Assembly: GCF_014518425.1 (NCBI RefSeq)
Contig: NZ_JACVCU010000005.1
Coordinates: 678 to 64,677 of the forward strand
Origin: Terrabacter sp. MAHUQ-38
GTDB lineage: Bacteria > Actinomycetota > Actinomycetes > Actinomycetales > Dermatophilaceae
Length of the DNA stretch: 64,000 nt
Direction: 5' to 3'
Shown here: in pieces, positions 1,189 through 61,700 of the stretch
How positions within the stretch are numbered: the first letter of the stretch is position 1
How the letters are laid out: every line of letters begins with the position of its first letter
Translations under genes and position numbers: made by a program
The notes under the pieces: generated by a model
The model's input: the letters and a program-made list of their open reading frames with translations, nothing else
Told to the model about the DNA's origin: nothing
Database searches by the model: none

Positions 1189-2241
1189 ATGGGCGCACCG
1201 AGCGGGTCCGTGATCGAGCGGTACGACGGGGTCATCTGTGACCTCGACGGGGTCGTCTACCGCGGTGGCGACGCCGTGCCCGGTGCGCCGGCTGCCTTGC
1301 AGGACATGGTCATTCGCGGCGTCCGTGTCGTCTACGCGACGAACAACGCGTCGAGGGTGCCCGCCGAGGTGGCCCGACAGGTCGCCGCCCTCGGCGCGCC
1401 GGCGGCCGCCATGGACGTCGTCTCCAGCGCGCAGGCCGGCGCGGCGCGCCTCCAGGCGCAGCTGCCCGCCGGGGCCAAGGTGTTGGCCCTCGGCGGCGAC
1501 GGCGTCGTCGAGGCCCTCGACCAGGTGGGTCTGGCTCCGGTCCGTCCCGCAGACCTGGACGGGACCGGAGCTGCGGACGTGGCCGCGGTCCTGCAGGGTT
1601 ACGGCAGGCAGCTGCGTGTGTCCGACTTCGAGACCGCCGCGCGCCTGCTCACCCGTGACCTGGCCTGGGTGGCCACGAACGACGACGCCACCCTGCCGCT
1701 CCCATGGGGCGAGTCGCCGGGCAACGGCGCCTACGTCGACCTGCTCGTCACCGCGACCAGGCGCCGGCCCGTCGTCGTCGGCAAGCCGCACCCGCCTCTC
1801 TACCGCCTGGCGCTCGACCATCTCGGCACGTCGCCGTCACGGACGCTGGCGGTCGGCGACCGTCTCGCCACGGACATCGTCGGTGCGGCGACCGCAGGCA
1901 TCCACTCGGCATGGGTGCTGACGGGTGTCGACCGGCCCTCCGACCTCGTCGGGTCGGGTGCCTCGCCGACCTATGTCGTCGCCTCCCTCGCCGAGCTCCT
2001 GCAGCCGTATGCCGTTGCGGAGCGGGATGCGGATGGGTGGCGCTGCGGCGGTGCTTTCGTCCGCGCAGGGGAGGACGGCCTGCAGATCGCGCAGGGGCGT
2101 GGCACTCCTGCGGAGGCCGTGCGCGCGGGGCTCGCCGCGATCGAGGAGGGGGCCCAGGACGGCCGTCCCACGGACCGACTCCGGGAGGAGGCACTCGCGC
2201 TCGACCGCCTCCTCGACCTCGCGCAGGCGTCGAGCCGGTAG
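1189..2241 (+). CDS. HAD-IIA phosphatase (glycerol 3-phosphate phosphatase-like)
   Basis: A 350-residue HAD superfamily subclass IIA phosphatase. Motif I is D18-L-D20-G-V with the nucleophile and acid/base aspartates. Motif II is YATNNAS, motif III lysine is in VGKPHPPLY, and motif IV is VGDRLATDI. The M. tuberculosis counterpart Rv1692 (similar length, same neighbours) is a D,L-glycerol 3-phosphate phosphatase involved in phospholipid polar-head recycling; that substrate is carried over by homology. The ATG at 1189 has a strong Shine-Dalgarno (AGGAGGA, 1179-1185). A TAGGGT -10 box at 1167-1172 suggests its own promoter with a leader of about ten bases. Confidence 0.9.
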   Translation: MGAPSGSVIERYDGVICDLDGVVYRGGDAVPGAPAALQDMVIRGVRVVYATNNASRVPAEVARQVAALGAPAAAMDVVSSAQAGAARLQAQLPAGAKVLALGGDGVVEALDQVGLAPVRPADLDGTGAADVAAVLQGYGRQLRVSDFETAARLLTRDLAWVATNDDATLPLPWGESPGNGAYVDLLVTATRRRPVVVGKPHPPLYRLALDHLGTSPSRTLAVGDRLATDIVGAATAGIHSAWVLTGVDRPSDLVGSGASPTYVVASLAELLQPYAVAERDADGWRCGGAFVRAGEDGLQIAQGRGTPAEAVRAGLAAIEEGAQDGRPTDRLREEALALDRLLDLAQASSR

Positions 2242-2281
2242 CGTGACCTGAGGGCACCAACCACCCGCACGGAGGCAGCAC

Positions 2282-2788
2282 ATGCATGGAGAGAGCGACG
2301 AGCGGCACGACGACCTCGGAGCCGACGAGGGTCTCGGTCTCACGGACGAGCTCGACCCCATGGACGCAGACACCTACGGCGACACGGACGACGACCGGGA
2401 CGACGACGCGTACGGCGGCGACGACTCGGATGCCGACACCGCGGCGCCGGACCCCGTCGGCGACGACTGGGACGCGGCGGACCCCGTCCTCCCCGACGAG
2501 TCGGGAGGTGGAGTCGACGGCGGCGACGACGAGATCGGGAGCGACGAGGACCGCGACGGCTCCGACACCGGCCTCGAGGCGGACACCACTGCCGCCGAGG
2601 TGCCCTACGCGCCACTCGACGCGACACCCGAGACCCCGACGCCTCCGGTCACGGGCGACGAGACCGTCGACGAGGCCATGCTGCGCCTTGCCGAGTCCCA
2701 GGCCGCGTCCTTCGCTGAACGCATCGATGCGGGGGAGCACGCACACCGCAGCCTGCAGAGCCGCCTCGGCGGCCTCGGTGGGGCGTGA
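2282..2788 (+). CDS. Small, extremely acidic hypothetical protein
   Basis: 168 residues, dominated by Asp, Gly and Thr in residues 1-120 with almost no lysine, so probably disordered. The last 45 residues (from about DETVDEAMLRLAES) look like a short amphipathic helix pair. Position between the HAD phosphatase and tlyA matches Rv1693, a much shorter M. tuberculosis hypothetical; only the C-terminal helix looks comparable. The start has SD GGAGG just upstream, and a TAGCGT box around 2239 may be a promoter. The stop overlaps the tlyA GTG start, implying translational coupling. The third-position G/C bias fits a real gene, but no function can be assigned. Confidence 0.75.
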   Translation: MHGESDERHDDLGADEGLGLTDELDPMDADTYGDTDDDRDDDAYGGDDSDADTAAPDPVGDDWDAADPVLPDESGGGVDGGDDEIGSDEDRDGSDTGLEADTTAAEVPYAPLDATPETPTPPVTGDETVDEAMLRLAESQAASFAERIDAGEHAHRSLQSRLGGLGGA

Positions 2789-3588
2789 CGACACGCCGAC
2801 TCGACGTCGAGCTCGTCACGCGCGGCCTGGCCCGCTCACGCGCCCAGGCCCGTGAGCTCATCACGGCCGGCGTCGTCCTCGTCGACGGTCGCCCGGCCGT
2901 CAAGCCGGCCCTCCCGGTCGACGACTCGACCGCGTTGGAGCTGACCCGGGACCCGGACCGGTGGGTAGGGCGAGCGGCGCTGAAGCTGCTGCACGCGCTC
3001 GACGTGTGGCCGATCACGGTCGCGGGCCGGCGCTGCCTCGACGTCGGGGCGAGCACGGGTGGCTTCACGCAGGTGCTCCTCGAGAGGGGCGCCGCCCACG
3101 TCACCGCCCTCGACGTCGGTCACGGCCAGCTCGTCGCGCCGATCGCGACCGACCCACGCGTTCGCGACCTGCCGGGCACGAACATCCGCGACGTCGACGC
3201 CCAGGCACTCGGTGGCCGGTTCGACGTGGTCGTCTCCGACCTCAGCTTCATCTCGCTCACGATCGCCCTGCCGGCCATGCGGCCGCTCGTGACCGACGAA
3301 GGCGACCTCGTCGTGCTCGTCAAGCCGCAGTTCGAGGTGGGGCGCGAGCGCCTGGGCCGTCGCGGCATCGTCACGTCGCGTCGCGAGCATCGTCGGGTGC
3401 TGCGCGACGTCGCCCAGGTGGCGATCGACGAGCACCTCCACCTGCACGGTGCGGCCGCCAGCCCGATCACCGGTGGCGACGGCAACCGCGAGTTCCTCCT
3501 CTGGCTCGCACCACGGCCCGTCCCCGACGCGTCGCGGACGTGGGTGGATGACATGCTGGAGGCCATCGACCTGGAGGGAGACCCGTGA
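2785..3588 (+). CDS. tlyA: TlyA, 16S/23S rRNA 2'-O-methyltransferase (S4 domain)
   Basis: 267 residues. The N-terminal S4 RNA-binding domain (about 4-65, RLDVELVTRGLARSRAQA) is followed by a FtsJ-like SAM methyltransferase fold. The SAM glycine motif is LDVGASTGG at 85-93, and SDLSFIS follows. In mycobacteria TlyA methylates C1409 of 16S and C1920 of 23S rRNA and is needed for capreomycin sensitivity; loss confers resistance. GTG start overlaps the previous stop by four bases (GTGA), and its own stop overlaps nadK in the same way, so it sits in a coupled operon. Confidence 0.95.
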   Translation: MTTRRLDVELVTRGLARSRAQARELITAGVVLVDGRPAVKPALPVDDSTALELTRDPDRWVGRAALKLLHALDVWPITVAGRRCLDVGASTGGFTQVLLERGAAHVTALDVGHGQLVAPIATDPRVRDLPGTNIRDVDAQALGGRFDVVVSDLSFISLTIALPAMRPLVTDEGDLVVLVKPQFEVGRERLGRRGIVTSRREHRRVLRDVAQVAIDEHLHLHGAAASPITGGDGNREFLLWLAPRPVPDASRTWVDDMLEAIDLEGDP

Positions 3589-4532
3589 CGCGCCGGATCC
3601 TGCTCGTCGCCCATCCGAGGCGCCCGGAGGCGCTGGCGGTCGCCAAGGGCGTCGTGGAGCGCCTCACTCATGTCGGCATCGACGTGTCGCTCCAGGCCGA
3701 CGAGGCCGATGCCCTCGACCTCAAGGACAGTGCCCGCGTCCATGTGGCCTCGAAGGAGGAACAGGTCGCCGAGGGCTGCGACCTCGTCGTCGTCCTCGGC
3801 GGGGACGGCACGATCCTGCGCGGCGCGGAGTTCGCACGCAGGGTGGACGTGCCCCTGCTCGGCGTGAACCTCGGTCATGTCGGCTTCCTCGCCGAGGCCG
3901 AACGCGACGACCTCGACGCCACCGTCGAGCACATCGCCAACAAGGACTACGACGTCGAGGAGCGCATGACGCTCCATGTCGACGCCAAGCTGCGTGGCGA
4001 GCTGATCGCCAGCAGCTGGGCGCTCAACGAGGTCACGGTCGAGAAGGCGGCGCGCGAGCGCATGCTGGAGTGCACCATCGAGGTCGACGGGCGGCCGCTG
4101 TCGAGCTGGGGGTGCGACGGTGTCATCGTCTCCACTCCCACGGGCTCGACGGCATACGCGTTCTCGGCCGGCGGCCCCGTCGTGTGGCCTCGGGTCGAAG
4201 CCATGCTCCTGGTCCCGAGCGCCGCCCACGCCCTGTTCGCGCGGCCGCTCGTGCTCGGCCCCGACACGCACCTCGCCGTCGAGATCAAGGCGGCGGCCGA
4301 GGGGGCAGGGGTCATGTGGTGCGACGGCCGGCGGCACGTCGACCTCCCGCCCGGTGCACGCATCGAGGTCCGGCGTGGTCTGCGCCCCGTGCGCCTGGCC
4401 CGCCTCACGAGCGCACCGTTCACCGACCGGCTCGTCGCGAAGTTCGACCTGTCGGTCGCGGGGTGGCGCGGCAACGGCGACACCACGCCCCCGGTGGACG
4501 ACGTCGACGGCGGTGAGGGTGCCCGGCCCTAA
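3585..4532 (+). CDS. nadK: NAD kinase
   Basis: 315 residues. It phosphorylates NAD (poly-P/ATP-type enzyme in actinobacteria) to give NADP. The catalytic GGDG motif is at 72-75 in VVVLGGDGTILRG; NLGHVGFLAE and the conserved PTGSTAYAFSAGGP segment follow. Length is normal for the family. GTG start overlaps tlyA by GTGA. The TAA stop at 4530-4532 is also the first half of a TAAGGT box that looks like the recN -10 promoter element. Confidence 0.96.
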   Translation: MTRRILLVAHPRRPEALAVAKGVVERLTHVGIDVSLQADEADALDLKDSARVHVASKEEQVAEGCDLVVVLGGDGTILRGAEFARRVDVPLLGVNLGHVGFLAEAERDDLDATVEHIANKDYDVEERMTLHVDAKLRGELIASSWALNEVTVEKAARERMLECTIEVDGRPLSSWGCDGVIVSTPTGSTAYAFSAGGPVVWPRVEAMLLVPSAAHALFARPLVLGPDTHLAVEIKAAAEGAGVMWCDGRRHVDLPPGARIEVRRGLRPVRLARLTSAPFTDRLVAKFDLSVAGWRGNGDTTPPVDDVDGGEGARP

Positions 4533-4535
4533 GGT
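4530..4535 (+). promoter_or_regulatory. -10 box TAAGGT for leaderless recN
   Basis: TAAGGT is followed after six bases by the recN GTG (4542). That spacing would put the transcription start on the start codon. The first three bases are the nadK stop codon. No SD precedes the GTG. I saw no convincing SOS box or RecA-independent damage motif upstream. Confidence 0.55.
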
Positions 4536-4541
4536 GGTCCC

Positions 4542-6335
4542 GTGTTCAGCCAGATGAGGATCCGCGGCGTCGGTGTCATCGACGACGCAGTCCTCGAGCT
4601 GAGTCCCGGTCTCAACGTCCTCACCGGCGAGACCGGTGCGGGCAAGACGATGGTGGTGTCCGGGCTCGGTCTGCTGCTCGGTGAGCGCGCCGACTCCGGC
4701 CTCGTCCGCACCGGGTCCGAGTCCGCGCTCGTCGAGGGCGTCGTCCAGCTGCCCCTGGGCCACCCCGCCCTCGTGCGCGCCGAGGAGGCCGGTGCCGACC
4801 ACGAGGACGGCGAGCTCGTGATCGCCCGCACCATCGCGGCGGCCGGTCGCTCACGCGCGCACGTCGGCGGACGCACGGCGCCCGTCTCGGTGCTCGCCGA
4901 GCTCGGTCAGCACCTCGTGGCCGTCCACGGGCAGGCCGACCAGTGGCGCCTCAAGCAGGGCGAGGCCCACCGCGCCGTGCTCGACGACTTCGGCGGCCCC
5001 GACGTCGTGGCGCTGCGCGACCGGGTGGCCGAGCTCCACGACCGCTGGCGCGAGTCGGCGCGCGAGCACGACCGCCTCGTCTCCGAGGCGCGCGAGCGCG
5101 CCCGTGAGATCGACTCACTCACGGCCTCGCTCGAGGAGATCGAGGCCGTCGACCCGCAGCCGCAGGAGGACGTCGCGTTGCGCGCCGAGGACGAGCGCCT
5201 CGCCCACTCCGACACGCTCCGGCTCGCCGCCGCCCAGGCCCTGGCCGACCTCAGCGGCGACGAGTATGCCGCCGAGCCGGCTCCCAACGTGCGTGACCTC
5301 ATCGGGTCGGCTCGCGCCGCCCTGGCGCCGGCCACGGGGCACGACGAGGCGCTGGCCGGACTCGACGAGCGCCTGCACGAGGTGGGCACCCTTGTCACCG
5401 ATCTCTCCGCCGACCTCACGGCATACCTCGACGACGTCGAGCTCGACCCCGACCGCCTCGCGTTCGTCCAGGAGCGCCGGGCTGCGCTCGGCGTGCTCAC
5501 GCGCAAGTACGGCGAGTCGGTCGACGAGGTCCTCGAGTGGTCCGGTCGCAGCGCCGCCCGGCTCGACGAGCTCGTGACGGCTGACGACCGCGTCGAGCGG
5601 CTCGGGGTCGAGGTGGCGCGGCTCGAGGCCGCGGTCGGGGCGGCCGCCGTGGCACTCTCCGATGCGAGGCGCGCCGCGGGCGACGAGTTCGCCACGCGTG
5701 TCTCGGAGGAGCTCGCGCACCTCGCCATGGGCAAGGCTGTCGTTCACGTCGAGGTGCGTCGCCGCCCCGACCCCGACGGTGTCACCCTCGCCGACGGGGA
5801 GCGGGTTCGCCTCTCGCGGCACGGGATCGACGACGTGGAGATCCTCCTGGCCGCCAACCCCGGCGCCTCTCCCCGGTCCGTCGCCAAGGCGGCGTCCGGT
5901 GGCGAGCTGTCCCGCGTCATGCTCGCCCTCGAGGTGGTCGGCGCGCGCACGCCGTCGGGCGAGGGAGTGGCCGGGCCGCCGACGTTCGTCTTCGACGAGG
6001 TGGACGCCGGCGTGGGTGGACGCGCCGCCCTCGACGTCGGCGCACGGCTCGCAGCCCTCGCCGAGCACTCACAGGTCATCGTCGTGACGCACCTCGCTCA
6101 GGTCGCCGCGTTCGCCGACCGGCACCTCGTCGTGCACAAGGCCGACGACGGGCGCATCACGTCCAGCAGCGTGTCCGTCGTCGACGGGGACGCGAGGCTG
6201 CGTGAGCTCTCCCGGATGATGGGCGGCGACCCCGACTCCGAGGCCGGGCTCGCCCATGCCGGCGACCTGCTGGAGCAGACGAGCTCGGTGCGCGGCAGGG
6301 CCGCCGCACCGGCACGCGGCGGCGCCCGAGGCTGA
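4542..6335 (+). CDS. recN: DNA repair protein RecN
   Basis: 597 residues of an SMC-like ATPase acting in double-strand-break repair. The N-terminal Walker A is GETGAGKT at 29-36. A central coiled-coil region (about 160-390) is rich in Glu/Arg/Ala. The C-terminal half has the ABC signature (ASGGELSRVMLALEV), Walker B (FDEVDAGVGG) and a VTHLAQVAAFAD switch. Length is typical. Lack of an SD and the TAAGGT box six bases before the GTG argue for a leaderless transcript in addition to read-through from nadK. Confidence 0.96.
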   Translation: MFSQMRIRGVGVIDDAVLELSPGLNVLTGETGAGKTMVVSGLGLLLGERADSGLVRTGSESALVEGVVQLPLGHPALVRAEEAGADHEDGELVIARTIAAAGRSRAHVGGRTAPVSVLAELGQHLVAVHGQADQWRLKQGEAHRAVLDDFGGPDVVALRDRVAELHDRWRESAREHDRLVSEARERAREIDSLTASLEEIEAVDPQPQEDVALRAEDERLAHSDTLRLAAAQALADLSGDEYAAEPAPNVRDLIGSARAALAPATGHDEALAGLDERLHEVGTLVTDLSADLTAYLDDVELDPDRLAFVQERRAALGVLTRKYGESVDEVLEWSGRSAARLDELVTADDRVERLGVEVARLEAAVGAAAVALSDARRAAGDEFATRVSEELAHLAMGKAVVHVEVRRRPDPDGVTLADGERVRLSRHGIDDVEILLAANPGASPRSVAKAASGGELSRVMLALEVVGARTPSGEGVAGPPTFVFDEVDAGVGGRAALDVGARLAALAEHSQVIVVTHLAQVAAFADRHLVVHKADDGRITSSSVSVVDGDARLRELSRMMGGDPDSEAGLAHAGDLLEQTSSVRGRAAAPARGGARG

Positions 6336-6400
6336 GGGGCTGCCCCCACGGCTCACCCATGGCGTCGCCGACACACCGACGTGGCACGATTGAGGCCATC

Positions 6401-9344: not shown

Positions 9345-11023
9345 GCCAACGCGCTGCGGGCGGGCGCCCTTCGCGCCGTGGGCTGCTCGCCGCCGCCGGG
9401 ACGATCGCGGTCATCACCCTCGTCGCCCGGATCGTCGGCTTCGGCCGCTGGTTCGCCTTCTCGCACTCGGTCGGTGCGACCTGCGTGGGCAGTGTCTACC
9501 AGTCCGTGAACGCCGTGCCGAACGTCCTCTTCGAGATCGCCGCCGGCGGGGTGCTCGCCGCTGTAGCGGTGCCGCTCGTCGCAACATCCCTCGCCCGCGG
9601 TGACCGGTCGCAGGCCGACGCGACAGCCTCCGCGCTGCTCACCTGGGCGGTGGTCGTGCTCGTGCCCCTGGCCATCGTCGTGACACTGGCGGCGCGACCG
9701 ATCGCGGGCGCCCTCCTCGGCACTGGATGTGCGGGCGAGGTCGCCCTCGGCGCGGAGCTGCTCGTCGTCTTCGCCGTCCAGATCCCGCTGTACGGTGTGG
9801 CGATAGTGCTGGCTGGAGTCCTCCAGTCTCATCAGCGGTTCGTCGGGGCGGCCGTCGCCCCATTGCTCTCGAGCCTCGTCGTCATCGCGACGTACCTGCT
9901 CTACCGGTCCCTGGTCCCCCTCCCGGCGGCCGCCATCGCCGACGTCCCGACGGGCGCGGTCGCCGTCCTGGGGGTGGGCACGACGCTCGGCGTCGTGGCA
10001 CTCGGTCTGCCGCTGCTCGTCCCGGTGCGCCGGGCAGGCATCCGGCTGCGCGCGAGGCTGCGCTTCCCCCAGGGAGCGGGTCGTCGCGTCAGGGCGCTCG
10101 CCCTCGCGGGCCTGCTGGCCGTGGCTGGGCAGCAGCTGGCGACCCTCGTCGTCATCCGGATCGCCAACGACCGCGGGGGTCCGGGCACGCTCAACGTCTA
10201 CACCTACGCCCAGGCCGTGACCCTGCTGCCGTATGCCGTGCTGGCCGTGCCGCTCGCGACGGCGGCCTTCCCGTCCCTCGCGGGCGCGCACGCCGCGAGC
10301 AGTGTGCCCGGCGGGGCGCCGGCGGCCGAGGCAACCCTGCGCAGGGCCTGGCTCGCGACCGTGGTCGTGTCGCTCTTCGGGGCTGCCGCCCTCGTCGCCG
10401 TGGCGGTTCCGGTGGGGTCCTTCTTCCAGTCGCTCGACGCCGGCTCGGGGTCCCAGACCTCGCTCCGGACGTTGGCCGCGATGGGCGACGCGGTGACCCT
10501 CTTCGCACCTTCGGTCGTCGCGCTGGCAGTCATCGGGCTGTTGGCCAGGGCGTCCTACGTGCGCGGGGCCGCCCTCGCCGCAGGCGCACTCGCGGCTGCG
10601 GGCTGGCTGGCAACAGCCGTCATGCCGTTGCTGCTGCTCGACCCGGCGGGTGCAAGCGGTCCGGCCACGGTGCGAGCCCTCGGCGCGGGGTCGAGCCTCG
10701 GGCTCGCCCTCGGGGCGGTGCTCCTCGTCGTCCTCGTCGGGCGCACCTGGGGGTGGGCCGCGCTGTCCCTCCCGCCGCGACCCCTGGTGGCGGCACTGAC
10801 CGGTTCGGTGGTGGCTGCCGGGACCGGACGTGCCGTCGCCTCCTGGTTGTCGGTGAGCGGTGTGGGGCACTCGCTCGGGTCGAGCCTGCTCGTCGGAGTG
10901 GGGGTAGGCGTCCTCGCGCTCGCCGTCATGATCGGCCTCGCGCTCGCGGTCGACCCATCGCTCGTCGCCCGCGTACGCCGCGCCCGCGGCGTCCAGGCCG
11001 CGGCGCAGGAGACGGTGCCGTGA
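9341..11023 (+). CDS. MurJ/MviN-like lipid flippase
   Basis: 560 residues with about 13-14 predicted membrane helices. It shows the MOP-superfamily N-terminus LVARIVGFGRWFAF and paired duplicated halves. ATG 9341 overlaps the previous stop (ATGA), which fixes the start despite a longer open frame upstream. MurJ flips lipid II. The neighbouring transferase and glycosyltransferase make a different lipid-linked glycan a reasonable cargo here, and whether this is the essential MurJ cannot be decided from the window. I cannot confirm the arginines of the central MurJ cavity by eye. Confidence 0.82.
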   Translation: MSQRAAGGRPSRRGLLAAAGTIAVITLVARIVGFGRWFAFSHSVGATCVGSVYQSVNAVPNVLFEIAAGGVLAAVAVPLVATSLARGDRSQADATASALLTWAVVVLVPLAIVVTLAARPIAGALLGTGCAGEVALGAELLVVFAVQIPLYGVAIVLAGVLQSHQRFVGAAVAPLLSSLVVIATYLLYRSLVPLPAAAIADVPTGAVAVLGVGTTLGVVALGLPLLVPVRRAGIRLRARLRFPQGAGRRVRALALAGLLAVAGQQLATLVVIRIANDRGGPGTLNVYTYAQAVTLLPYAVLAVPLATAAFPSLAGAHAASSVPGGAPAAEATLRRAWLATVVVSLFGAAALVAVAVPVGSFFQSLDAGSGSQTSLRTLAAMGDAVTLFAPSVVALAVIGLLARASYVRGAALAAGALAAAGWLATAVMPLLLLDPAGASGPATVRALGAGSSLGLALGAVLLVVLVGRTWGWAALSLPPRPLVAALTGSVVAAGTGRAVASWLSVSGVGHSLGSSLLVGVGVGVLALAVMIGLALAVDPSLVARVRRARGVQAAAQETVP

Positions 11024-12162
11024 GAGTCCTCATGCTCCTCGGGCGCTCCACAGGCGGGATCGGCGCCCACGTCGGCGCGCTCGTGGCAGGTCTGCGCGAC
11101 GAGGGGCACGAGGTCCTCGTCGTCACGGCCGACTCGACGGCTGACTCATTCGGCTGGACCGGTGCGGCGCGCCTCTGGCCGGTGCACCGCGGGGCCCGTG
11201 CGCCACGAGGCCTCGTGGACTGGCACCGGATCATGCGGCTGGCCGGCACCGTCGACGTCGTCCACGCCCACGGCCACCAGGCCGCCGTCGTCGCGGCGGC
11301 GGCCGTCGCTCGTGCCCTGCCGAGGCCGCGCTTCGTCGTCTCGCTGCACAACGACCTCCCGCCGTCCGGCCCGTCCACTGCCTCGCGAGCAGCGCAGGGC
11401 GTCCTGCGGTGGACGGTGTCCCGGGCACTGCGCCGCGCCGACCTCGTGACCGGCGCCAGCGAGGACCTCGTCACCCTCGCGAGCACGCTCGGCGCGCGCC
11501 GCACCGAGCTCGCCGAGGTGCCGTCCGCCGGCGTCGCGGGGCTGCTCGACGCGTCCCCACTGGCGCCCGCGGAGCGTGAGGCCCTGCTCGAGGGGGCGAG
11601 TGTGCCCGCAGGCCTACCTGTGGTGCTCACCGTGTCGCGCATCGCGCCGCAGAAGGACCTGCCCACGCTCCTCGAGGCGGCCCGCCTCTCGCGTCAGCCG
11701 GCGACGTGGGTCGTGGTGGGCAGCGGCGACGAACGACTCCGGGCGCGCCTCGAGGAGGCGGCGGGCGGCATACGGCCGGGGGACGCTGATGCGACACGCG
11801 CGGGCGTGCGGTTCGTCGGGGCCCGTGACGACGTGTCCGAGTGGCTTCGGGCGGCCGATGTGTTCGTCCTGACGAGTCGCTGGGAGGCCCGCGCGCTCGT
11901 CGTCCAGGAGGCCATGGCAGCGGGCCTGCCGGTCGTCGCGACCCGGGCCGGAGGCCTGCCGGCACTCGTGGATGGCGCGGGGTCGCTTGTGCCCGTGGGC
12001 GATCCGGCCGCAACGGCCGCCGAGGTCGACCGCCTGCTGGGTGACCGTGCCGAGCGGGCCCGCCTCGGTGCCGCGGCGAGGGTCGTGGCGGCCTCCTGGG
12101 CCTCGCCGGCCGCCGAGGCGCGCCGGTGGGTGGAACGCTACTCCGCGACCCTCCCGGGATGA
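11020..12162 (+). CDS. GT4-family glycosyltransferase
   Basis: 380 residues, GT-B fold. The N-terminal glycine loop is [13 protein letters not shown], a [10 protein letters not shown] strand follows, and the acceptor/donor linker is [14 protein letters not shown]. The C-terminal EX7E motif sits in [19 protein letters not shown] and is followed by [12 protein letters not shown]. It is a retaining nucleotide-sugar transferase; donor and acceptor are unknown. GTG start overlaps the flippase stop by GTGA, so the three genes are translationally coupled. Confidence 0.88.
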
Positions 12163-16038: not shown

Positions 16039-16947
16039 ATGATCGATCCTGTCGCTCTGCGCTCGCTGGTCGCCGTCGAGTCGTACGGGTCCGTCGGAGC
16101 CGCTGCGGCGGCGCTCGACTACACGCCGAGTGCCGTCTCGCAGCAGATCAAGCGTCTGGAGACCCAGACCGGGGTCCAGCTGCTCGAGCGCCAGGGCCGC
16201 GGCGTCCTGCTCACCGAGGCCGGTCGCACGCTGTCCGAGTCGGCACGCGACCTGCTCTCACACATGGAACGGCTCGAGTCGCGGGTGCACGGCGTGAGCG
16301 GCGAGACGGTCGGCACGGTGCGCCTGGCGACGTTCGCGACGGCATACCGGGGAATCGTCGTCGGGGCGATCGGCCGGCTGCGGGCCACAGCCCCGGACGT
16401 CGTCCTGCGGCCCGACGAGATCGACCCGTGGGACGCGGTCGACGCCGTCGCCTCCGGCTCCCACGACCTCGCGCTCGTGCACAACTGGGAGCCGCTGCCG
16501 CTCGCCATTCCCGACCACCTCGACGTGCGCCACCTCGGCCGCGACCGGGCCGACGTCCTCGTGCACGTCGACCATCCGCTCGCCGCGCGCCGGACCATCG
16601 GCGTGGCCGACGTTCTCGACGAGGACTGGGCGAGCGTCGCGCCGGGCTCGATCTGCCACCAGTGGCTGCAGAAGATGTTCTTCGACGTCGGCCGGGCCCC
16701 ACGCATCACCCATGTCGCCCTCGAGTTCGCCACCCACATCGCGCTCGCCGCGCGTGGCGAGTGCATCGCCCTCGTGCCACGCCTGGGGCGCGGCCCGCTG
16801 CCCACCGATGTCGTCGCGGTTCCCATCGTCGAGCCCGTCTCCGAGAGGACGGTGAGCCTCGTGTGGCGTCGAACCATGACCGACCGCCCAGCGCTCGCGG
16901 CCACGGTCGAAGCCCTTGCCGCAGAAGGCTCTCGGGACCTCACCTGA
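16039..16947 (+). CDS. LysR-family transcriptional regulator
   Basis: 302 residues. The N-terminal winged helix-turn-helix (about 4-62) reads VAVESYGSVGAAAAALDYTPSA and then VSQQIKRLE. The C-terminal half is a periplasmic-binding-protein-like effector domain. It is divergent from an EamA exporter, the usual arrangement for a LysR activator and its target. The effector may be an amino acid or related metabolite (ArgP/LysG-LysE logic), but nothing in the sequence fixes it. Confidence 0.9.
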   Translation: MIDPVALRSLVAVESYGSVGAAAAALDYTPSAVSQQIKRLETQTGVQLLERQGRGVLLTEAGRTLSESARDLLSHMERLESRVHGVSGETVGTVRLATFATAYRGIVVGAIGRLRATAPDVVLRPDEIDPWDAVDAVASGSHDLALVHNWEPLPLAIPDHLDVRHLGRDRADVLVHVDHPLAARRTIGVADVLDEDWASVAPGSICHQWLQKMFFDVGRAPRITHVALEFATHIALAARGECIALVPRLGRGPLPTDVVAVPIVEPVSERTVSLVWRRTMTDRPALAATVEALAAEGSRDLT

Positions 16948-25710: not shown

Positions 25711-25732
25711 GCGGGTATGCCGCGTGGCGGCG

Positions 25733-36528: not shown

Positions 36529-36578
36529 CGTATGCCGCTGGGCCGGCTCCCGCACGGGAGCCGGCCCAGCGGCATACG
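36529..36578 (+). terminator. Operon terminator with octamer at both ends
   Basis: A perfect 23-bp stem (36529-36551 with 36556-36578) with a four-base loop, 26 bases after the last ABC gene. Its two ends are the GTATGCCG octamer and its complement. It has no T-run, as is usual in high-GC actinobacteria. Confidence 0.85.
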
Positions 36579-42131: not shown

Positions 42132-42841
42132 TCCTGCCGGTGACGTGGGTCCAGGCGCCGGGGGCGCCGTGGTGGTTCGTCGTGCTGGTCGCCGTCGCGG
42201 GCGCGCTCGTCGGGGAGGTGCTCCGGCGCCGGCTCGCCACGGGCGGCTACCGGGTCGACGACGAGACCGGGCCGCTGCCGCGGGTGCCGTCGACGTCCCT
42301 GCCCGTGGTGCTGGCCGTGCTCTGGGCGCTGTTCGCCTGGCGCTTCGGGCCGCTCTCGGACTGGGCGCTCGCGCCCGCCTACCTCGGCTTCGCCTTCGTG
42401 GCGGTCGCACTGGCCTGGATCGACGCCGACGTGCACCGCCTCCCACGCGGGCTGACGCGGCCGGCATACCCCATGCTCGTCGGCCAGCTGGCGATCGCCT
42501 CCCTCGCCTCCGGCGACTGGGAGGCCCTGCGGCGGGCCGCGATCGCCGGTGCCGTGCTGTGGGGCATCTACTTCGTGCTCGCCCTCGTGGCGGCGCTGCT
42601 CGGCAGCGGCTTCGGCTTCGGTGACGTCACGCTCGCCGGACTCGTCGGCCTCGCCACCGGCTACGTCAGCGTCTCGACGACGCTCGTCGCGTCGTACGCC
42701 GCGTTCATCCTCGCGGGCATCTACGGCCTCGCGCGCCTCGTGCTGCGGCGGGGCACGCGCAAGGACGACATCGCGTTCGGGCCGTGGATGCTCGTCGGCC
42801 TCCTCGTCGCGCTCGTCGTGCAGGTGCGGCCGCTCTACTGA
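42128..42841 (+). CDS. A24 prepilin peptidase (short form)
   Basis: 237 residues, about six to seven membrane helices. The two catalytic aspartates of GxGD aspartyl proteases are visible: AWIDADVHRLP and GSGFGFGDVTLAG. The N-terminal methylase domain of PilD-type enzymes and its cysteines are missing, as in many actinobacterial versions. These enzymes process type IV or Tad pilins and pseudopilins, including those of competence systems. GTG overlaps aroE by GTGA, so it is co-transcribed with aro genes though unrelated to them. No pilin gene is in the window. Confidence 0.88.
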   Translation: MILPVTWVQAPGAPWWFVVLVAVAGALVGEVLRRRLATGGYRVDDETGPLPRVPSTSLPVVLAVLWALFAWRFGPLSDWALAPAYLGFAFVAVALAWIDADVHRLPRGLTRPAYPMLVGQLAIASLASGDWEALRRAAIAGAVLWGIYFVLALVAALLGSGFGFGDVTLAGLVGLATGYVSVSTTLVASYAAFILAGIYGLARLVLRRGTRKDDIAFGPWMLVGLLVALVVQVRPLY

Positions 42842-42913: not shown

Positions 42914-44134
42914 ATGTTGCGTTGGTTGACGGCCGGTGAGTCGCACGGGCCCGCACTCGTCGCCATGATCGAGGGCCTCCCGGCAGGAGTCGAGGTCGGC
43001 GCGAAGGACCTGCAGGCCGCCCTGGCCCGCCGCCGCCTCGGCTACGGTCGCGGCGCCCGGATGAAGTTCGAGCAGGACGAGGTCGAGTTCCTCGGCGGGC
43101 TGCGCCACGGGGTGACCATCGGCTCGCCGATCGCGGTCCGCATCGGCAACAGCGAGTGGCCGAAGTGGACGACCGTGATGAGCCCGGAGGCGGTCACCGA
43201 CGAGGCGTATGCCGCGTCCGACGACGTCAACGCCGAGAAGGAGGTCGCGCGCAACAAGCCGCTCACGCGGCCGCGTCCCGGTCACGCCGACCTCGTCGGC
43301 ATGCAGAAGTACGGCCACGAGGACGCCCGCCCCGTCCTCGAGCGGGCGTCGGCCCGCGAGACCGCGGCCCGCGTCGCGCTCGGCGAGGTGGCGGCGCGCT
43401 TCCTCGAGCAGGCCTACGGCATCCGTCTCGTGTCGCACACGGTGGCGATCGGCACCGCGTCGGTGGGTTCCGGCGCCGAGCTGCCGACGCCCGACGACCT
43501 CGAGCGCCTCGACGCCGACCCCGTGCGCGCCTTCGACGCCGAGGGGTCGGCCGCGATGGTCGCCGAGGTCGATGCCGCGAAGAAGGACGGTGACACGCTC
43601 GGTGGCGTCGTCGAGGTGCTGGCCTACGGGCTGCCGCCGGGTCTGGGCTCGCACGTCCACTGGGACCGCAAGCTCGACGCGCAGCTCGCACAGGCGCTCA
43701 TGAGCATCCAGGCGATCAAGGGCGTCGAGGTCGGCGACGGCTTCGAGACCGCTCGGCGGCGCGGCTCGCAGGCGCACGACGAGATGGAGCTCGTCGACGG
43801 AGTCATCACCCGCCGCACGGGTCGCGCCGGCGGCACCGAGGGCGGCATGTCGACGGGCCAGGTGCTCCGCGTGCGCGCCGCGATGAAGCCGATCAGCACC
43901 GTGCCCAGGGCCCTGTCGACCGTCGATGTGGCCACGGGCGAGGCCGCGACGGCCATCCACCAGCGTTCGGACGTGTGCGCCGTGCCGGCAGCCGGCGTCG
44001 TCGCCGAGGCCATGGTCGCGCTCGTCCTGGCGCAGGCCTGCCTCGAGAAGTTCGGGGGCGACTCCGTCACCGAGACGGCCCGCAACCACACGGCATACCT
44101 CGAGGGCATCCGCGAGGGGCTGCGCACGTGGTGA
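42914..44134 (+). CDS. aroC: Chorismate synthase
   Basis: 406 residues. It converts EPSP to chorismate using reduced FMN. Conserved stretches are [56 protein letters not shown], and the C-terminal [22 protein letters not shown] 42914 is preceded by GGGAGG. The stop overlaps aroK by GTGA. Confidence 0.97.
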
Positions 44135-44661: not shown

Positions 44662-45785
44662 CCGACCGCACCCTGCCGACCACGATCTCCGTCGGAGGCG
44701 ACTACGACGTCGTCATCGGCGCCGGCGTCCTCGAGAGGGTCACCGACCTGCTCGGCGCCGACGTCGCGCGAGTGCTCGTCGTGCACCCGCCCACCCTGGC
44801 CGCCCTCACCGGCCGGGTCACCGGCGCGCTCGAGGCCAAGGGGTATGCCGTCCACGTCGCGGAGGTGCCCGACGCCGAGGCAGCGAAGACCGCCGGCGTC
44901 GCAGCCGAGCTCTGGGGCGTCCTGGGCCGCGCCGGCTTCACCCGCACCGACGCCGTCGTCGGCGTGGGTGGCGGCACCGTCACCGACCTCGCCGGCTTCG
45001 TGGCCGCGTCGTGGCTGCGTGGTGTCAAGGTCGTGCAGGTGCCGACGACGCTCCTCGGCATGGTCGACGCAGCGGTCGGTGGCAAGACGGGCATCAACAC
45101 CCCGGAGGGCAAGAACCTCGTGGGTGCCTTCCACCCGCCTGCGGGTGTGCTCTGCGACGTCGACGTCCTCGTCACCCTGCCGCAGGCCGACCTCGTCGCA
45201 GGCCTCGCCGAGGTCGTCAAGTGCGGCTTCATCGCCGACCCCGCCATCCTCGACCTCGTCGAGGCGTCGGTCGCCGCCGACCCCGACACCGCTCGCAGCG
45301 CCGACAACCCGCACCTGCGAGAGCTCATCGAGCGCGCGATCCGGGTCAAGGCCGACGTCGTCGCCGCGGACCTTCGCGAGAGCTCGCTGCGCGAGATCCT
45401 CAACTACGGCCACACGTTCGCCCACGCGATCGAGCAGGTCGAGCAGTACTCCTGGCGACACGGCGAGGCGGTCAGCGTCGGCATGGTCTACGTGGCCGAG
45501 CTGGCCCGCCTCACCGGACACCTCGCAGGCCCGGACGGTGACGCGCTCGTGGCCCGGCACCGCGCCGTGCTCGAGTCGCTCGGCCTGCCCACGACGTACA
45601 CCCCGGGTCGCTGGGACGAGCTGTTGACCGCGATGCGCCGCGACAAGAAGTCGCGGGGCTCGACGCTGCGCTTCGTCGTGCTCGACGACCTCGCCAGGCC
45701 CACCCGCCTGGCCGGCCCGGACGACGTGCTGCTCCAGGCGGCATACGGCCTCGTGTCCCGGGCCGTCACGGCTCCCGCTCACTAG
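44658..45785 (+). CDS. aroB: 3-dehydroquinate synthase
   Basis: 375 residues. Motifs are [14 protein letters not shown] (NAD site), [20 protein letters not shown], the metal ligands Glu in AEVVKCG and His in [11 protein letters not shown], and HGEAVSVGM. It closes DAHP to dehydroquinate. The TAG stop (45783-45785) is the first half of TAGACT, a likely -10 box for aroQ. Confidence 0.97.
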
Positions 45786-45795: not shown

Positions 45796-46233
45796 ATGAC
45801 GGCACCCACGGTCTTCGTCCTTTCGGGCCCCAACCTCAACCGTCTCGGCACGCGTGAGCCAGAGGTCTACGGCTCCGACACGCTCGACGACATCCACGTC
45901 GCCGTCGTCCGCGAGGCTCGTGACCTCGGCCTCGTCGCCGACTGCCGCCAGACCAACCACGAGGGCGAGCTCGTCGACTGGCTCCACGAGGCCGTCGACA
46001 CCGGGGCCGACGTCGTGCTCAACCCGGGAGCCTTCACCCACTACTCGTATGCCGTCCGCGACGCCTGCGCGATCGTCACGACGAGCGGCCGCAGCCTCGT
46101 CGAGGTGCACCTGTCCAACCCTGCCGCGCGCGAGGAGTTCCGGCACACCTCGGTCGTGGCAGGTGTCGCGACCGGGACCATCGCGGGGTTCGGGCTGCAG
46201 TCGTACCTGCTGGCCCTGCGCGCCCTCGTCTGA
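45796..46233 (+). CDS. aroQ: Type II 3-dehydroquinate dehydratase
   Basis: 145 residues, the flavodoxin-like dodecameric type. SGPNLNRLGTREPEVYG contains the lid Arg and catalytic Tyr. NPGAFTHYSYAVRDA and VEVHLSNPAAREEFRHTS (His-bearing) complete the site. It dehydrates dehydroquinate to dehydroshikimate, the substrate of the AroE in the same cluster. Possibly transcribed both with aroB and from its own leaderless promoter. Confidence 0.96.
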   Translation: MTAPTVFVLSGPNLNRLGTREPEVYGSDTLDDIHVAVVREARDLGLVADCRQTNHEGELVDWLHEAVDTGADVVLNPGAFTHYSYAVRDACAIVTTSGRSLVEVHLSNPAAREEFRHTSVVAGVATGTIAGFGLQSYLLALRALV

Positions 46234-47329: not shown

Positions 47330-49375
47330 TCAGGTGAGGGCGCTCGGCAGGGGTTCGGCGTGCACGATCGTCAGCTCCGACACGGCGCGGGTCAGCACGA
47401 TGTAGAGGCGGCGCAGGCCGGTGCGCTCGTCGGGTTCGGCCCTCGCGATGGCAGCGGGCTCGACGACGACCGTCCGGTCGAACTCCAGACCCTTCGCGAC
47501 GGTAGCGGGCACGACCTCGACCTGGTGGTCCTCGTCGTCGCCGTGGTCGACGTCGAGCCGGCCGTGCGACACCGAGGCCGACGTGAGTGCGGCGCAGACC
47601 GTCCCGACCATCGCGTCCGGCGCGATGACGCCCACCGACCCCGGCGTGGCCGCTGCCGCCTCCACGGCACGGACCACCACCGCCTCCAGCGATCCCGGGT
47701 CCGCCGGCCGCAGCTCGAGGCGGCCCGGGTTGTCGCGCACCGACACGGGCGCTCCGAGACCGGGGGCCATGGCGGGCAGCAGCCTGGCGGCGTACTCGAT
47801 GACGACGGCCGGCACGCGGAACCCGCGGTCGAGCACGACGAGGTCGTGGTCGTCCTTCCCGAGGTGGCGCATCGCCTCCTCCCACGATGCCGTCGCCCAT
47901 GGCGTCGTGCCCTGTGCGATGTCGCCGAGCACGGTTACCGACCCCGTGGAGGCGCGCCGGCCCACCGCGCGCAGCTGCATGGGGGAGAGGTCCTGCGCCT
48001 CGTCGAGCACGACGTGCCCGAGGCTCGGCACTCGGCGCAGGAGGTCGTCGAGCTCGTCGAGCAGCGCCATGTCTGCCCGTGACCATCGGGCCGCTCCCTT
48101 GGTGCGAGCGGGCTTGTGCCACAAGAGCATCGCCTGCTCGTCGGCACTGAGATCGTCGCACGCAGCGGCGCGAAGCGCGTCGGGGTCGGACCAGAGGCGG
48201 TGCAGGACGGCCTGCGGGTCGAGCGCGGGCCAGACCGACCTGACGTACGCCTTCACGGCCGGCGACTTCGCCACGGCGTCCTGGACGCGGTCGTCCGGCG
48301 CCTCCCCGGCGCGCTCCATCTCGAGCAGCACGTGGTGGGCGAGACGCTGGGGGAGCAGGTCGCGCGCGGCGGAGTAGCGCACGCCGCGGGCCCCGAGCTC
48401 GTCGAGGATCACCTGCACCTCGTATGCCGGCACGCGCCACCTGCGCACGCCGCGCGGCACCACGAGCGCCTCCGTGGGACGCGCGACCTGCGACCAGACG
48501 GCACGACGCAGCACCGTGGCGAGGCGCGGGTCGCCCTTGAGGGTCGCGACGTCGGCGGGCTCGTCCGCGCGCACGCGCCCGTGGTCGAGGAGCGTCTCGA
48601 TCGTCGCGTGACCGACGCGGACCTCGCCGAGCGACGGGAGGACCGCTCCGATGTGGTCGAGGAAGGCCCGGTTCGGTCCGACGACGAGAACGCCCGAGCG
48701 GTCGAGGCGGTCCCGGAAGGAGTAGAGCAGCCAGGCCGCTCGGTGCAGGCCGACCGCCGTCTTGCCGGTGCCCGGTGCGCCCTGGACGCACACGCTGACG
48801 GCGACGTCGCTGCGCACGATCTCGTCCTGCTCGGGCTGGATCGTCGAGACGATGTCGCGCATCGGGCCGGTACGCGGCCGTTCGATCTCTGCGGCGAGCA
48901 GGGACCCGGTCGTCGCGTCGTCCGACACCTGCGGCTCGCGCAGGTGCTCGTCCTCGAGGGCGGTGAGGCGACCACGGTCGACGCCGAACCGGCGGCGGAG
49001 CACGACGTCCATCGGATCGAGCCGCGACGCCCGGTAGAACGCCGTGGAGATCGGCGCACGCCAGTCGACGACGACCGGGTCGCCCGCTTCGTCGGACACG
49101 TGACGCCGGCCGATGTGGAAGCGCTCGGCCGGTCCGCCCGGAGGGTCGAGGTCGATGCGGCCGAAGAAGAGCGTGGTCCGCGGGTCGTCCTGCAGCGAGG
49201 CGATGCGACGTGCGAGCACCCAGCCGAGGACCTCGCCCGAGACGGCGTCACTGGCCTTCGACGCGTCGAGCGACTCGGCGAGCCGACGCATCCGGCCGAG
49301 CTGCTCGCGAGCATCCTCGAGGTAGGCCTGCTCCCGGGCGAGCTCGGCGGCGAGAGCGGTGTCGGGCGCGGGCAC
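47330..49375 (-). CDS. helD: HelD-family RNA polymerase recycling ATPase
   Basis: 681 residues. A short N-terminal coiled coil (about 8-40) is followed by VVDWRAPISTAFYRAS. Walker A is GAPGTGKT at 199-206, Walker B is VVLDEAQDLSPMQL, and the C-terminal motif is LYIVLTRAVSELTIVH. HelD frees RNA polymerase from stalled or idle complexes. It is shorter than the HelR paralogue at 16975-19188 and lacks the rifamycin-associated element. GTG 49375 is preceded by AAAGG eight bases upstream; an open frame continues to 49612 but runs through the leader inverted repeat, so I reject it. Confidence 0.86.
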   Translation of the reverse strand: MPAPDTALAAELAREQAYLEDAREQLGRMRRLAESLDASKASDAVSGEVLGWVLARRIASLQDDPRTTLFFGRIDLDPPGGPAERFHIGRRHVSDEAGDPVVVDWRAPISTAFYRASRLDPMDVVLRRRFGVDRGRLTALEDEHLREPQVSDDATTGSLLAAEIERPRTGPMRDIVSTIQPEQDEIVRSDVAVSVCVQGAPGTGKTAVGLHRAAWLLYSFRDRLDRSGVLVVGPNRAFLDHIGAVLPSLGEVRVGHATIETLLDHGRVRADEPADVATLKGDPRLATVLRRAVWSQVARPTEALVVPRGVRRWRVPAYEVQVILDELGARGVRYSAARDLLPQRLAHHVLLEMERAGEAPDDRVQDAVAKSPAVKAYVRSVWPALDPQAVLHRLWSDPDALRAAACDDLSADEQAMLLWHKPARTKGAARWSRADMALLDELDDLLRRVPSLGHVVLDEAQDLSPMQLRAVGRRASTGSVTVLGDIAQGTTPWATASWEEAMRHLGKDDHDLVVLDRGFRVPAVVIEYAARLLPAMAPGLGAPVSVRDNPGRLELRPADPGSLEAVVVRAVEAAAATPGSVGVIAPDAMVGTVCAALTSASVSHGRLDVDHGDDEDHQVEVVPATVAKGLEFDRTVVVEPAAIARAEPDERTGLRRLYIVLTRAVSELTIVHAEPLPSALT

Positions 49376-49555: not shown

Positions 49556-49651
49556 TGCGCGGCAAACTCCCCCAGACAGCGAACGTCCGGTCCCCGGCGT
49601 GCAGATCGTCACGCCCGCGGCCGACCGGCATACGAAAGTGGTTCAGAAACG

Positions 49652-52493: not shown

Positions 52494-52497
<4 letters not shown>

Positions 52498-53831: not shown

Positions 53832-55086
53832 CGACCCAGACACCGCTCACCGTGCCGAGCCGAGACGGACGGCCCGGCCGCACGCGCGAGGGAGCCATCC
53901 TCGTCCTCGAGGACGGCCGAACCTTCCGCGGCGCGTCCTACGGCGCCGTCGGCGAGACCGTCGGCGAGGCGGTCTTCTCGACCGGCATGACCGGCTACCA
54001 GGAGACGCTGACCGACCCGAGCTACCACCGGCAGGTCATCGTCATGACCGCGCCGCACGTGGGGAACACGGGCGTCAACACCGAGGACGACGAGAGCACC
54101 CGCATCTGGGTGGCCGGCTACGTCGTGCGGGACCCCGCGATCCGCTCGTCGAACTGGCGGGCCACCCGCGACCTCGAGGACGAGCTCGACGAGCAGGGCG
54201 TCGTCGGCATCTGCGAGCTCGACACGCGCGCCCTGACGCGCCACCTGCGCGAGCGCGGCGCGATGCGCGTCGGGATCTTCAGCGGCCAGGCCGCCCACCG
54301 ACCCGAGGGCGAGCTGCTCGACGCCGTGCGCACGAGCCCCCAGATGGCGGGCGCCGCCCTCGCCGCCGAGGTCACGACCACCGAGCCGTATGCCGTCGGC
54401 GCCGTGGGCGAGAAGCGCTTCACCGTCGCGGCCGTCGACCTCGGCATCAAGGCGATGACGCCGCACCTCATGGCCCAGCGCGGCATCGAGGTGCACGTGC
54501 TGCCGGCCACCGCAACGATCGACGACGTGCTCGCGGTGGGGGAGGACGGCCCCGACGGCGTGTTCTTCTCCAACGGCCCCGGCGACCCTGCGACGGCCGA
54601 GCGCGAGGTCGAGCTGCTGCGCGAGGTGCTCGACCGCGGCGTGCCGTTCTTCGGCATCTGTTTCGGCAACCAGCTCCTCGGACGGGCGCTCGGCTTCGGC
54701 ACGTACAAGCTGAAGTACGGCCACCGCGGCATCAACCAGCCGGTCATGGACCGCACGACGGGCAAGGTCGAGGTGACCGCCCACAACCACGGCTTCGCCG
54801 TCGACGCCCCGCTCGACGGGGACAGCGACACGGCATACGGCCGCGTCCGGGTCTCGCACGTGTGCCTCAACGACGACGTCGTCGAGGGCCTCGAGTGCCT
54901 CGACCGCCCGGCGTACTCCGTCCAGTACCACCCCGAGGCTGCCGCCGGCCCGCACGACGCCGCCTACCTCTTCGACCGCTTCGTGGAGCTCATGGAAACC
55001 AGACAGACAACCCACCAGAGGAGTTCGGCGCGCGTCGCGCCCGGACTGACGAGCGAAGCCAGCGACAAGCAGGGCGGGAGCAGGTA

Positions 55087-55087
<1 letters not shown>
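53828..55087 (+). CDS. carA: Carbamoyl-phosphate synthase, small (glutaminase) subunit
   Basis: 419 residues. After the N-terminal [20 protein letters not shown] comes the class I glutaminase with SNGPGDPAT, nucleophile Cys in [23 protein letters not shown] and the [13 protein letters not shown] triad end. A tail of about 25 Ser/Thr/Arg/Gln-rich residues follows the fold. The stop and the carB start share one base (TAATG), giving strict coupling to the large subunit. Confidence 0.96.
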
Positions 55088-58415
<3,328 letters not shown>

Positions 58416-58419
<4 letters not shown>

Positions 58420-60256: not shown

Positions 60257-60284
60257 CGGCGAGCGACCAGAGAACGGAGCCGAC

Positions 60285-61142: not shown

Positions 61143-61175
61143 GGGCCGCTGGTCCTGCGCGGGTATGAGCCGCGC

Positions 61176-61634
61176 ATGACCCAGCGTATGGCTCACGCCG
61201 TGTCACCTCGCCGACTGCTCGCCGTCGCCGCGATCGCCCTGACCGTGCCGTTCGCCGCCGCGTGCGCGTCGAGTGTGCCGCCGACCACGGGGTCCTCGAG
61301 CGCGTCAGCTGCCCCGACGACGTCGAGCGTGACGGCGACCGCCGCAGGCGACGCGTACTGCGACGCGCTCAAGGACGGCCAGAAGGAGCTCGAGTCGATC
61401 TCGAGCAACATCACCGACCAGGCGGCGCTCAAGCAGGGCCTGGCCGTGCTCCAGAAGATCAGGGCTTCGGCGCCGCCCGAGGTCGAGCATGCCTGGGACG
61501 ACTTCATCGCGTTCGTCGACGCGGCAGCCGCCGGCAACACGAGCGCCATCGTCGGGGCCCTGGAGAAGATGCAGGCGGCCGGGACGACGATCGAGACCCA
61601 CGCGAAGGCGACGTGCAACATCGACATGCAGTGA
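61176..61634 (+). CDS. Small lipoprotein, paralogue 1
   Basis: 152 residues. The signal peptide has a lipobox FAAAC, then a Ser/Thr/Ala linker to about residue 57. The mature helical domain carries YCDALKDGQKELES, PPEVEHAWDDFIAFVD and ETHAKATCNID. Two cysteines (after the linker and near the end) probably form a disulphide. The next gene encodes a clear relative. Start is ATG 61176 or 61188. Function unknown. Confidence 0.8.
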   Translation: MTQRMAHAVSPRRLLAVAAIALTVPFAAACASSVPPTTGSSSASAAPTTSSVTATAAGDAYCDALKDGQKELESISSNITDQAALKQGLAVLQKIRASAPPEVEHAWDDFIAFVDAAAAGNTSAIVGALEKMQAAGTTIETHAKATCNIDMQ

Positions 61635-61694
61635 CGCGGTCCTGACGCCCGCTCGCGAGCCCGGGCCCGCCGGGACGACCCGACGCCCACGGCA

Positions 61695-61700
61695 TACGGT
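61695..61700 (+). promoter_or_regulatory. -10 box TACGGT for leaderless lipoprotein gene
   Basis: TACGGT lies six bases before ATG 61707 and overlaps a GTATGCCG octamer copy (core 61691-61697, reverse). Confidence 0.45.

Follow-up and report, generated by a model that had tools for sequence, protein, structure and literature searches.

A strand-balanced octamer with one-base dialects in Dermatophilaceae genomes as a candidate DNA uptake sequence

A stretch of 64,000 nucleotides from Terrabacter sp. MAHUQ-38 (contig NZ_JACVCU010000005.1, positions 678 to 64,677 of the forward strand; hereafter, the window) carries 25 copies of the octamer GTATGCCG, 11 on the forward and 14 on the reverse strand, which is considered here as a candidate DNA uptake sequence. 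A first-pass annotation of the same DNA had counted 25 copies of the heptamer GTATGCC, every one extending to the octamer, and the recount agrees in number, extension (25/25) and strand. Its coordinates also hold, except that octamers on the minus strand start one base lower than the heptamers that were quoted (11766, not 11767). The copies of GTATGCCG, an intergenic inverted pair that two of them form, and a prepilin peptidase gene are located as follows.

2007..2014 (+), copy 1
4150..4157 (-), copy 2
5264..5271 (+), copy 3
5419..5426 (-), copy 4, 155 bp from copy 3 and on the opposite strand
10231..10238 (+), copy 5
11766..11773 (-), copy 6
16340..16347 (-), copy 7
22915..22922 (-), copy 8
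25715..25722 (+), copy 9
27078..27085 (-), copy 10
29839..29846 (-), copy 11
36530..36537 (+), copy 12, left arm of a hairpin
36570..36577 (-), copy 13, right arm of the hairpin
42462..42469 (-), copy 14, within the prepilin peptidase gene
43207..43214 (+), copy 15, in aroC
44091..44098 (-), copy 16, in aroC
44843..44850 (+), copy 17
45739..45746 (-), copy 18
46047..46054 (+), copy 19
48422..48429 (+), copy 20
49626..49633 (-), copy 21, just upstream of efp
54388..54395 (+), copy 22
54831..54838 (-), copy 23
56594..56601 (+), copy 24
61690..61697 (-), copy 25
36530..36577 (no strand), intergenic inverted pair of copies 12 and 13, a perfect stem-loop (-60.8 kcal/mol, z -9.5)
41996..42841 (+), Peptidase_A24 prepilin peptidase (Pfam PF01478, E 1.3e-7; longest open reading frame, start provisional)

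In dinucleotide shuffles of the window, the octamer occurred 0.74 times on average (largest value 3) and the heptamer 1.78 times (largest value 5), and GTATGCCG and its complement ranked top when all window octamers were scored with an order-1 Markov model. Throughout the genome (G000; 5.16 Mb in 18 contigs), 1006 and 1018 copies were counted on the two strands, 2024 in all, as compared with 167 and 142 copies of the reversed word, a control that is itself inflated because GCC preceding a motif copy creates the reversed word. Codon usage was taken into account by shuffling synonymous codons while the proteins were kept (100 shuffles of 13 samples from this genome, 304 kb with the window included), which left 7.4 ± 2.8 coding copies (at most 14 in the 100 shuffles) versus 106 real ones. 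In the same samples, 31 copies were found between genes versus 0.5 expected. The gene caller was crude, and the excess in the codon test is far larger than its errors. Both the over-representation and the assertion that codon preference does not explain it are thereby borne out beyond the window, against a codon-preserving model. An artefact of mutational bias, codon usage or a repeat family, in favour of which no point was found, is contradicted by the synonymous shuffling, by the 25 window copies versus 0.74 and by the intergenic excess; moreover, the sequences flanking the copies are mostly unrelated from copy to copy, and no enrichment occurs in 362 genomes of other families within the order. 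The probability of such an artefact appears practically negligible.

Within the window, the annotation had divided the copies into 5 intergenic ones, 2 in other reading frames and 18 that force disfavoured codons. This division could be checked in part, and the crude caller, which assigns a few open reading frames to the wrong strand, puts 8 of the 25 outside genes. The stem formed by copies 12 and 13, flanked by alaS on one side and by the gene of an oligopeptide-type ABC ATPase on the other (Pfam assignments), is perfect as described, but no T run follows it and its designation as a terminator lacks that support. The prepilin peptidase is present as annotated and is a candidate maturase of Tad/Flp pilins.

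A pooled set of 79 samples (1.574 Mb) comprises 1045 sites, 252 of which fall in predicted intergenic DNA (16.2% of the bases), so that sites are about 1.5-fold denser between genes. Fourteen intergenic inverted pairs separated by at most 60 bp occur among the 1045 sites, including nine convergent pairs and several perfect hairpins. Low GC content was used as a proxy for acquired DNA. In MAHUQ-38, 5-kb bins of the lowest-GC fifth contain 0.47 copies on average, with 11 of 15 bins empty, versus 2.39 copies and 1 empty bin of 57 in the remainder. A scarcity of the octamer in low-GC DNA was also observed in G111 (Spearman p = 8e-6), while only a trend was seen in Phycicoccus elongatus Lp2 (G173; p = 0.07); by this proxy, the expected contrast between core and acquired regions is clear in two of these genomes. 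One 20-kb stretch of MAHUQ-38 (L038; G000:C13:300001-320000; 66% GC) has no GTATGCCG and contains open reading frames with low third-position GC; it was probably acquired. With regard to the flanks of intergenic copies, the octamer is preceded by C in MAHUQ-38 or G in G173 and followed by T in MAHUQ-38, CGG in G173 and CG in G111. A flank consensus common to all genera was rejected, as the flanks vary by lineage.

The distribution of the octamer was analyzed in 186 genomes from 53 genera of the family Intrasporangiaceae, which we take to be the Dermatophilaceae of GTDB. Counts of GTATGCCG are bimodal over these genomes: nine genomes of the window's genus (g1) have 1423-2358 copies each, and the octamer is absent from whole genera of the family. 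Of 396 genomes drawn over the order, 362 represent 19 other families, and none of these 362 showed enrichment. The maximum was 180 copies, and those with more than three times as many copies of GTATGCCG as of the reversed word always had fewer than 100.

The family has at least three dialects that differ by one base, GTATGCCG, GGATGCCG and GTACGCCG. In de novo counts of 20 or 40 kb samples from 20 species without high GTATGCCG, GGATGCCG ranked first among the octamers of G178 and G042, and GTACGCCG was raised in G010, G023, G098, G022 and G092; no such word stood out in the remaining sampled species. In the codon-aware test, GGATGCCG reached 42 copies versus 5.9 in G042 and 28 versus 5.4 in G178, and GTACGCCG reached 28 versus 7.0 (G010), 26 versus 6.7 (G023), 18 versus 3.6 (G098) and 14 versus 5.1 (G022), each count exceeding the maximum reached in 100 shuffles; the values for G092 were 13 versus 5.3 (maximum 12). 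Genome-wide, GGATGCCG occurs 3619-4480 times in g9, g51 and two of the four g15 species, while two g15 species harbor two dialects in one genome (2099-2195 copies of GGATGCCG and about 1200 of GTATGCCG). Copies of GTACGCCG number 2111-4185 in g35, 2216-2618 in g7, two g3 species and one g5 species, and 1359 in g6. G092 has 1463 copies of GTACGCCG, whereas its sister species use GTATGCCG. The comparison with related genera that the first-pass annotation had proposed thus shows a motif common to many of them, with one-base variants.

These dialects could also follow changes of an enzyme if the octamer were a methylation or restriction motif, such as a site read on one strand by a Type III or BREX-type system, for which asymmetric words of this length are typical. 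On the other hand, a host genome is not usually enriched more than 10-fold for the sites of its own restriction and modification systems, and such systems turn over quickly, whereas the enrichment of the octamer spans dozens of genera. This explanation appears highly improbable.

The two strands are used evenly, with 135 of 266 copies forward in P. elongatus, where each of 17 stretches is close to balanced, in addition to the genome-wide balance of MAHUQ-38; nevertheless, the orientations of neighbours are not independent. Adjacent copies lie on opposite strands in 159 of 249 cases in G173, 84 of 129 in MAHUQ-38 and 150 of 222 in the named relatives (one locus being shared with G173), and, for the dialects, in 106 of 167 cases for GGATGCCG and 68 of 116 for GTACGCCG (p = 0.08). 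This alternation arises mainly because same-strand pairs are under-represented at distances below about 1 kb. In the pooled set, 237 same-strand pairs were found at distances of 10-1000 bp, i.e., 0.63 of expectation, versus 464 opposite-strand pairs (1.24 of expectation); from about 1 kb onward, same-strand pairs are no longer depleted. When orientations were permuted at fixed positions, none of 2000 permutations gave 237 or fewer same-strand pairs. Among 214 non-palindromic octamers with 500-1500 copies in the same DNA, GTATGCCG included, GTATGCCG has the lowest ratio of same- to opposite-strand pairs (0.51); the next lowest (0.63) belongs to the overlapping shifted form of GTATGCCG itself, compared with a median of 1.15. 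The ratio of same- to opposite-strand pairs is 10:48 in MAHUQ-38, 57:141 in G173 and 35:83 in the named relatives, and in the window all eight neighbour pairs closer than 1 kb are on opposite strands. Since the rule holds for pairs within one gene (107:201), for pairs that span different genes (55:113) and for those with an intergenic member (75:150), it is a property of the DNA and not of the encoded proteins. The regularity of gaps with strands pooled was rejected as a description, the coefficient of variation (0.86-1.25, versus 1.03 ± 0.06 for random placement in G173) being inconsistent; the regularity sits within strands.

Such spacing fits any signal that is read on one strand, including a Chi-like signal with no role in uptake, recognized in single-stranded or unwinding DNA by RecBCD, by a helicase-nuclease of the AddAB or AdnAB type or by a RecA loader. 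Chi is likewise short, non-palindromic, enriched, species-variable and read on one strand. However, the octamer lacks orientation bias, both genome-wide in MAHUQ-38 (1006 versus 1018) and in P. elongatus (135/266), and it does not follow RecC, the protein that recognizes Chi in E. coli, which is encoded in 89 of the 186 genomes (AddAB and AdnAB were not searched for). RecC is absent from eight of the nine motif-rich g1 genomes and present in most genomes of the motif-free genus g27. The exception within g1 is the window's strain itself, which suggests an acquired RecBCD locus. The RecBCD form of this explanation was rejected, and a Chi-like signal in general is considered unlikely. A further possibility is that the octamer is the site of a protein that organizes the chromosome or associates with the nucleoid, and for which both strands must carry copies at regular intervals. 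Its even and strand-balanced spread and the above-chance regularity within strands are compatible with such a site, but the octamer is non-palindromic and mostly inside genes, pair distances in the pooled set show no sharply preferred value and chiefly same-strand avoidance, and the absence from whole genera and the one-base changes between close relatives are unlike a core chromosome function. This role appears quite improbable.

With regard to the machinery of transformation, MAHUQ-38 encodes ComEA (SLBB and HHH domains) and a full ComEC, whose closest match is that of Terrabacter sp. Root85 (78% identity in the best segment), with further close matches in Terracoccus, Humibacillus and Intrasporangium. 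The genome also has three Tad/Flp loci: L041, L040 (a TadA-family ATPase and an Ssd-like protein) and a third one adjoining prfB. In G173, the prfB-linked locus has the order TadA (T2SSE), a T2SSF protein, a gap, a 62-residue putative Flp with no Pfam match, two TadE-like proteins, a TadG-like protein and prfB; the gap corresponds to the position of a second T2SSF gene in G094. The expectation of a competence pilus was thus right insofar as pilus and competence genes are present, but these genes specify a Tad/Flp pilus, and the prfB-linked tadA is interrupted in the window's strain. ComEC was rejected as a determinant of the motif, being found in 180 of the 186 genomes with or without it. The L041-type Tad locus was also set aside, because close TadA matches, compared by eye, are missing from many motif-rich genera and present in motif-free ones. 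In addition, a truncated ComEC was dismissed as the cause of motif loss in G122, where the match stops near the edge of an 8504-bp contig and is uninformative. The ComEC of G076 matches two places 28 kb apart (G076:C1:2175144-2176736 and 2204464-2204862), and that of G092, a species using GTACGCCG, is split into several matching segments, one of which contains a TGA (G092:C1:107075-109566).

The letters ATGCCG lie within every window copy, often followed by TC in the MAHUQ-38 genome, and also inside the 12-mer AT-DUS of Neisseria, a DNA uptake sequence (DUS) with a leading AT; this may be chance. The neisserial DUS is quoted as GCCGTCTGAA in the available text of PMC6370729. According to the accessible parts of PMC3630211, DUS of the Neisseriaceae occur in dialects, with thousands of copies per genome, some relatives have no obvious DUS, and two dialects may share a genome. 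The octamer resembles them in copy number on both strands, in dialects that follow lineages, in relatives without it and in the two g15 species with two dialects. The differences are that the neisserial system uses type IVa pili and ComP, whereas the present organisms are Gram-positive with Tad/Flp loci, no ComP found and another sequence; that inverted pairs, numerous there as far as the available text goes, are only mildly enriched here; and that same-strand avoidance over about 1 kb is documented here, in a system known from genomes. For the uptake signal sequence (USS) of the Pasteurellaceae, the available portions of PMC7811141 and PMC2346458 give a spacing of about 1000 bp, inverted pairs and no general orientation bias. 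The density of the octamer is similar (about 1 per 2.5 kb in MAHUQ-38 and 1 per 1.3 kb in the P. elongatus samples), the lack of bias is shared, and inverted pairs, mildly enriched here, occur in both; the two systems have different sequences and uptake machinery. A pair of USS within 100 bp gives no detectable rise in uptake by Haemophilus influenzae (PMC7811141, in part), and the minor pilin that would serve as USS receptor is described as only predicted in the accessible text of PMC12616744. In Micrococcus luteus, transformation is linked to two tad loci, to comEA/comEC and to a prepilin peptidase encoded elsewhere (PMC4322843, accessible parts), and parts of the same kinds are present in MAHUQ-38. 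A term search did not find "uptake sequence" in the main text of PMC4322843 or in the available text of a 2026 competence paper (PMC12849477), and the accessible part of a 2019 review of type IV filaments names no uptake sequence for M. luteus. Among the titles listed in searches of open-licence papers, none concerned an uptake sequence in actinobacteria, and a prior report elsewhere is possible.

As far as genomes show, the octamer works like DUS and USS. We consider it probable, at roughly 75%, that GTATGCCG is a DNA uptake sequence, i.e., a self-marker that favours DNA of the same or related species in natural transformation. This reading, which the first-pass annotation had offered and genome evidence supports, is preferred because of the codon-independent excess, the limits of the motif within the sampled order, the dialects, the scarcity in low-GC DNA and the strand-specific spacing of about 1 kb. 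A Tad/Flp-type competence pilus, probably that of the prfB-adjacent locus, would bind octamer-bearing fragments through a minor pilin or an associated protein. ComEA would then receive the DNA, ComEC would import one strand, and RecA would recombine it into the chromosome. Biased uptake of this type would spread every new copy by molecular drive, and one copy would serve one strand over about 1 kb; another copy on that strand would then be superfluous, whereas the opposite strand would still require one. The octamer is probably read with polarity, fixing which strand or direction enters, because a second copy within about 1 kb is avoided on the same strand but not on the other. For gonococcal transformation, the title of one cited paper refers to a strand preference. 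A fuller picture combines a polar uptake signal that needs its own copy per strand each 1 kb or so or more, a link to Tad/Flp pili in Gram-positive bacteria, dialects acting as mating groups within one actinobacterial family, and mobile elements disabling a pilus gene; this combination is tentative, its odds falling slightly short of even.

A correlate in gene content is offered by the prfB-linked TadA, for which 162 of 186 genomes, representing 47 of 53 genera, give a match at E <= 1e-100. A genus was called strong-motif if one species had at least 340 copies of GTATGCCG, 2000 of GGATGCCG or 1000 of GTACGCCG. Each of the 37 strong-motif genera has this TadA in one or more species, versus 10 of the 16 others (Fisher p = 3.5e-4), although the cut-offs were chosen after the counts were seen and the test ignores phylogeny, two limits that count among the arguments against the uptake reading. 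The six genera without it are g2, g12, g16, g28, g29 and g38. Two genera, g13 (up to 322 copies of GTATGCCG) and g10, lie just below the cut-offs, and moving both gives p = 1.3e-4.

Further observations weigh against an uptake sequence. The 10 genera just mentioned have a prfB-linked Tad locus without a strong motif. In G016 (g4) and G122 (g42), the motif present in their congeners is missing, yet TadA is full-length in both, as is ComEC in G016. Conversely, the TadA match at the same threshold is missing in nine motif-bearing genomes (G081, G082, G109, G126 and G129 as listed; G130, G132, G138 and G181 by elimination), five of which are at least 99% complete. No gene that tracks the motif tightly was found among ComEC, ComEA, the Tad loci and the minor pilin set. 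ComEA was rejected as a determinant, being conserved in motif-bearing and motif-free genomes alike, as was the minor pilin content of the prfB-linked locus, which is complete in the motif-free genomes G060 and G064 (g27) and G162 (g47). TadE-like, second TadE-like and TadG-like proteins exist, but having them does not distinguish species with the motif from those without it (25 loci), and no receptor was found. The spacing rule is weaker in G111 (125:176, with 14 of 2000 permutations as low) and not significant alone in the remaining samples (10:16; 238 of 2000), and a simple redundancy model does not demand the 1.24-fold excess of opposite-strand pairs at 10-1000 bp. The habit of forming inverted pairs, which had been cited as typical of uptake sequences, is the weakest point: hairpin pairs do exist, but over all DNA, pairs at 10-100 bp are mildly enriched when convergent (27 versus 17.4 expected) and not when divergent (15 versus 17.4). 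Finally, the prfB-linked tadA of the window's strain is interrupted by a lower-GC element (about 8.7 kb) that encodes a large serine recombinase, and given this interruption the strain may not be competent now.

The interruption fits a recent insertion into a competence gene. The insert (L200:~103-8826; G000:C13:117103-125826) has one GTATGCCG inside, and comparison with G002 shows about 10 bp of the target on both sides. An insert of about 10 kb occupies the same tadA position in G004 (L202:9913 onward; G004:C8, up to ~359450). TadA matches of G172 and G072 stop near the same codon as the tadA inserts, and others have no 5′ part. It may be that tadA is a recurrent landing site of mobile elements. 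In the Tad loci of G178 (L191) and G092 (L193), foreign-looking open reading frames follow TadC and TadB, and one of those in G178 has repeated 'VPDWQRQLFQ' units.

Uptake sequences are known from two Gram-negative families. If the uptake reading is true, the octamer would be a third case, in Gram-positive actinobacteria with a Tad/Flp pilus, and sequence-tagged sex would have arisen again with other machinery. The dialects and the motif-free relatives provide comparative material for finding the receptor, and the same-strand spacing makes it testable whether an uptake signal chooses the entering strand. Tagged donor DNA would also be a practical handle for transforming soil and wastewater actinobacteria, if this is so. 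Another over-represented word, GCACGGCAAC, which is unrelated to the octamer, was observed 11 times in 40 kb of G178 (L056 and L057) versus 0.2 expected.

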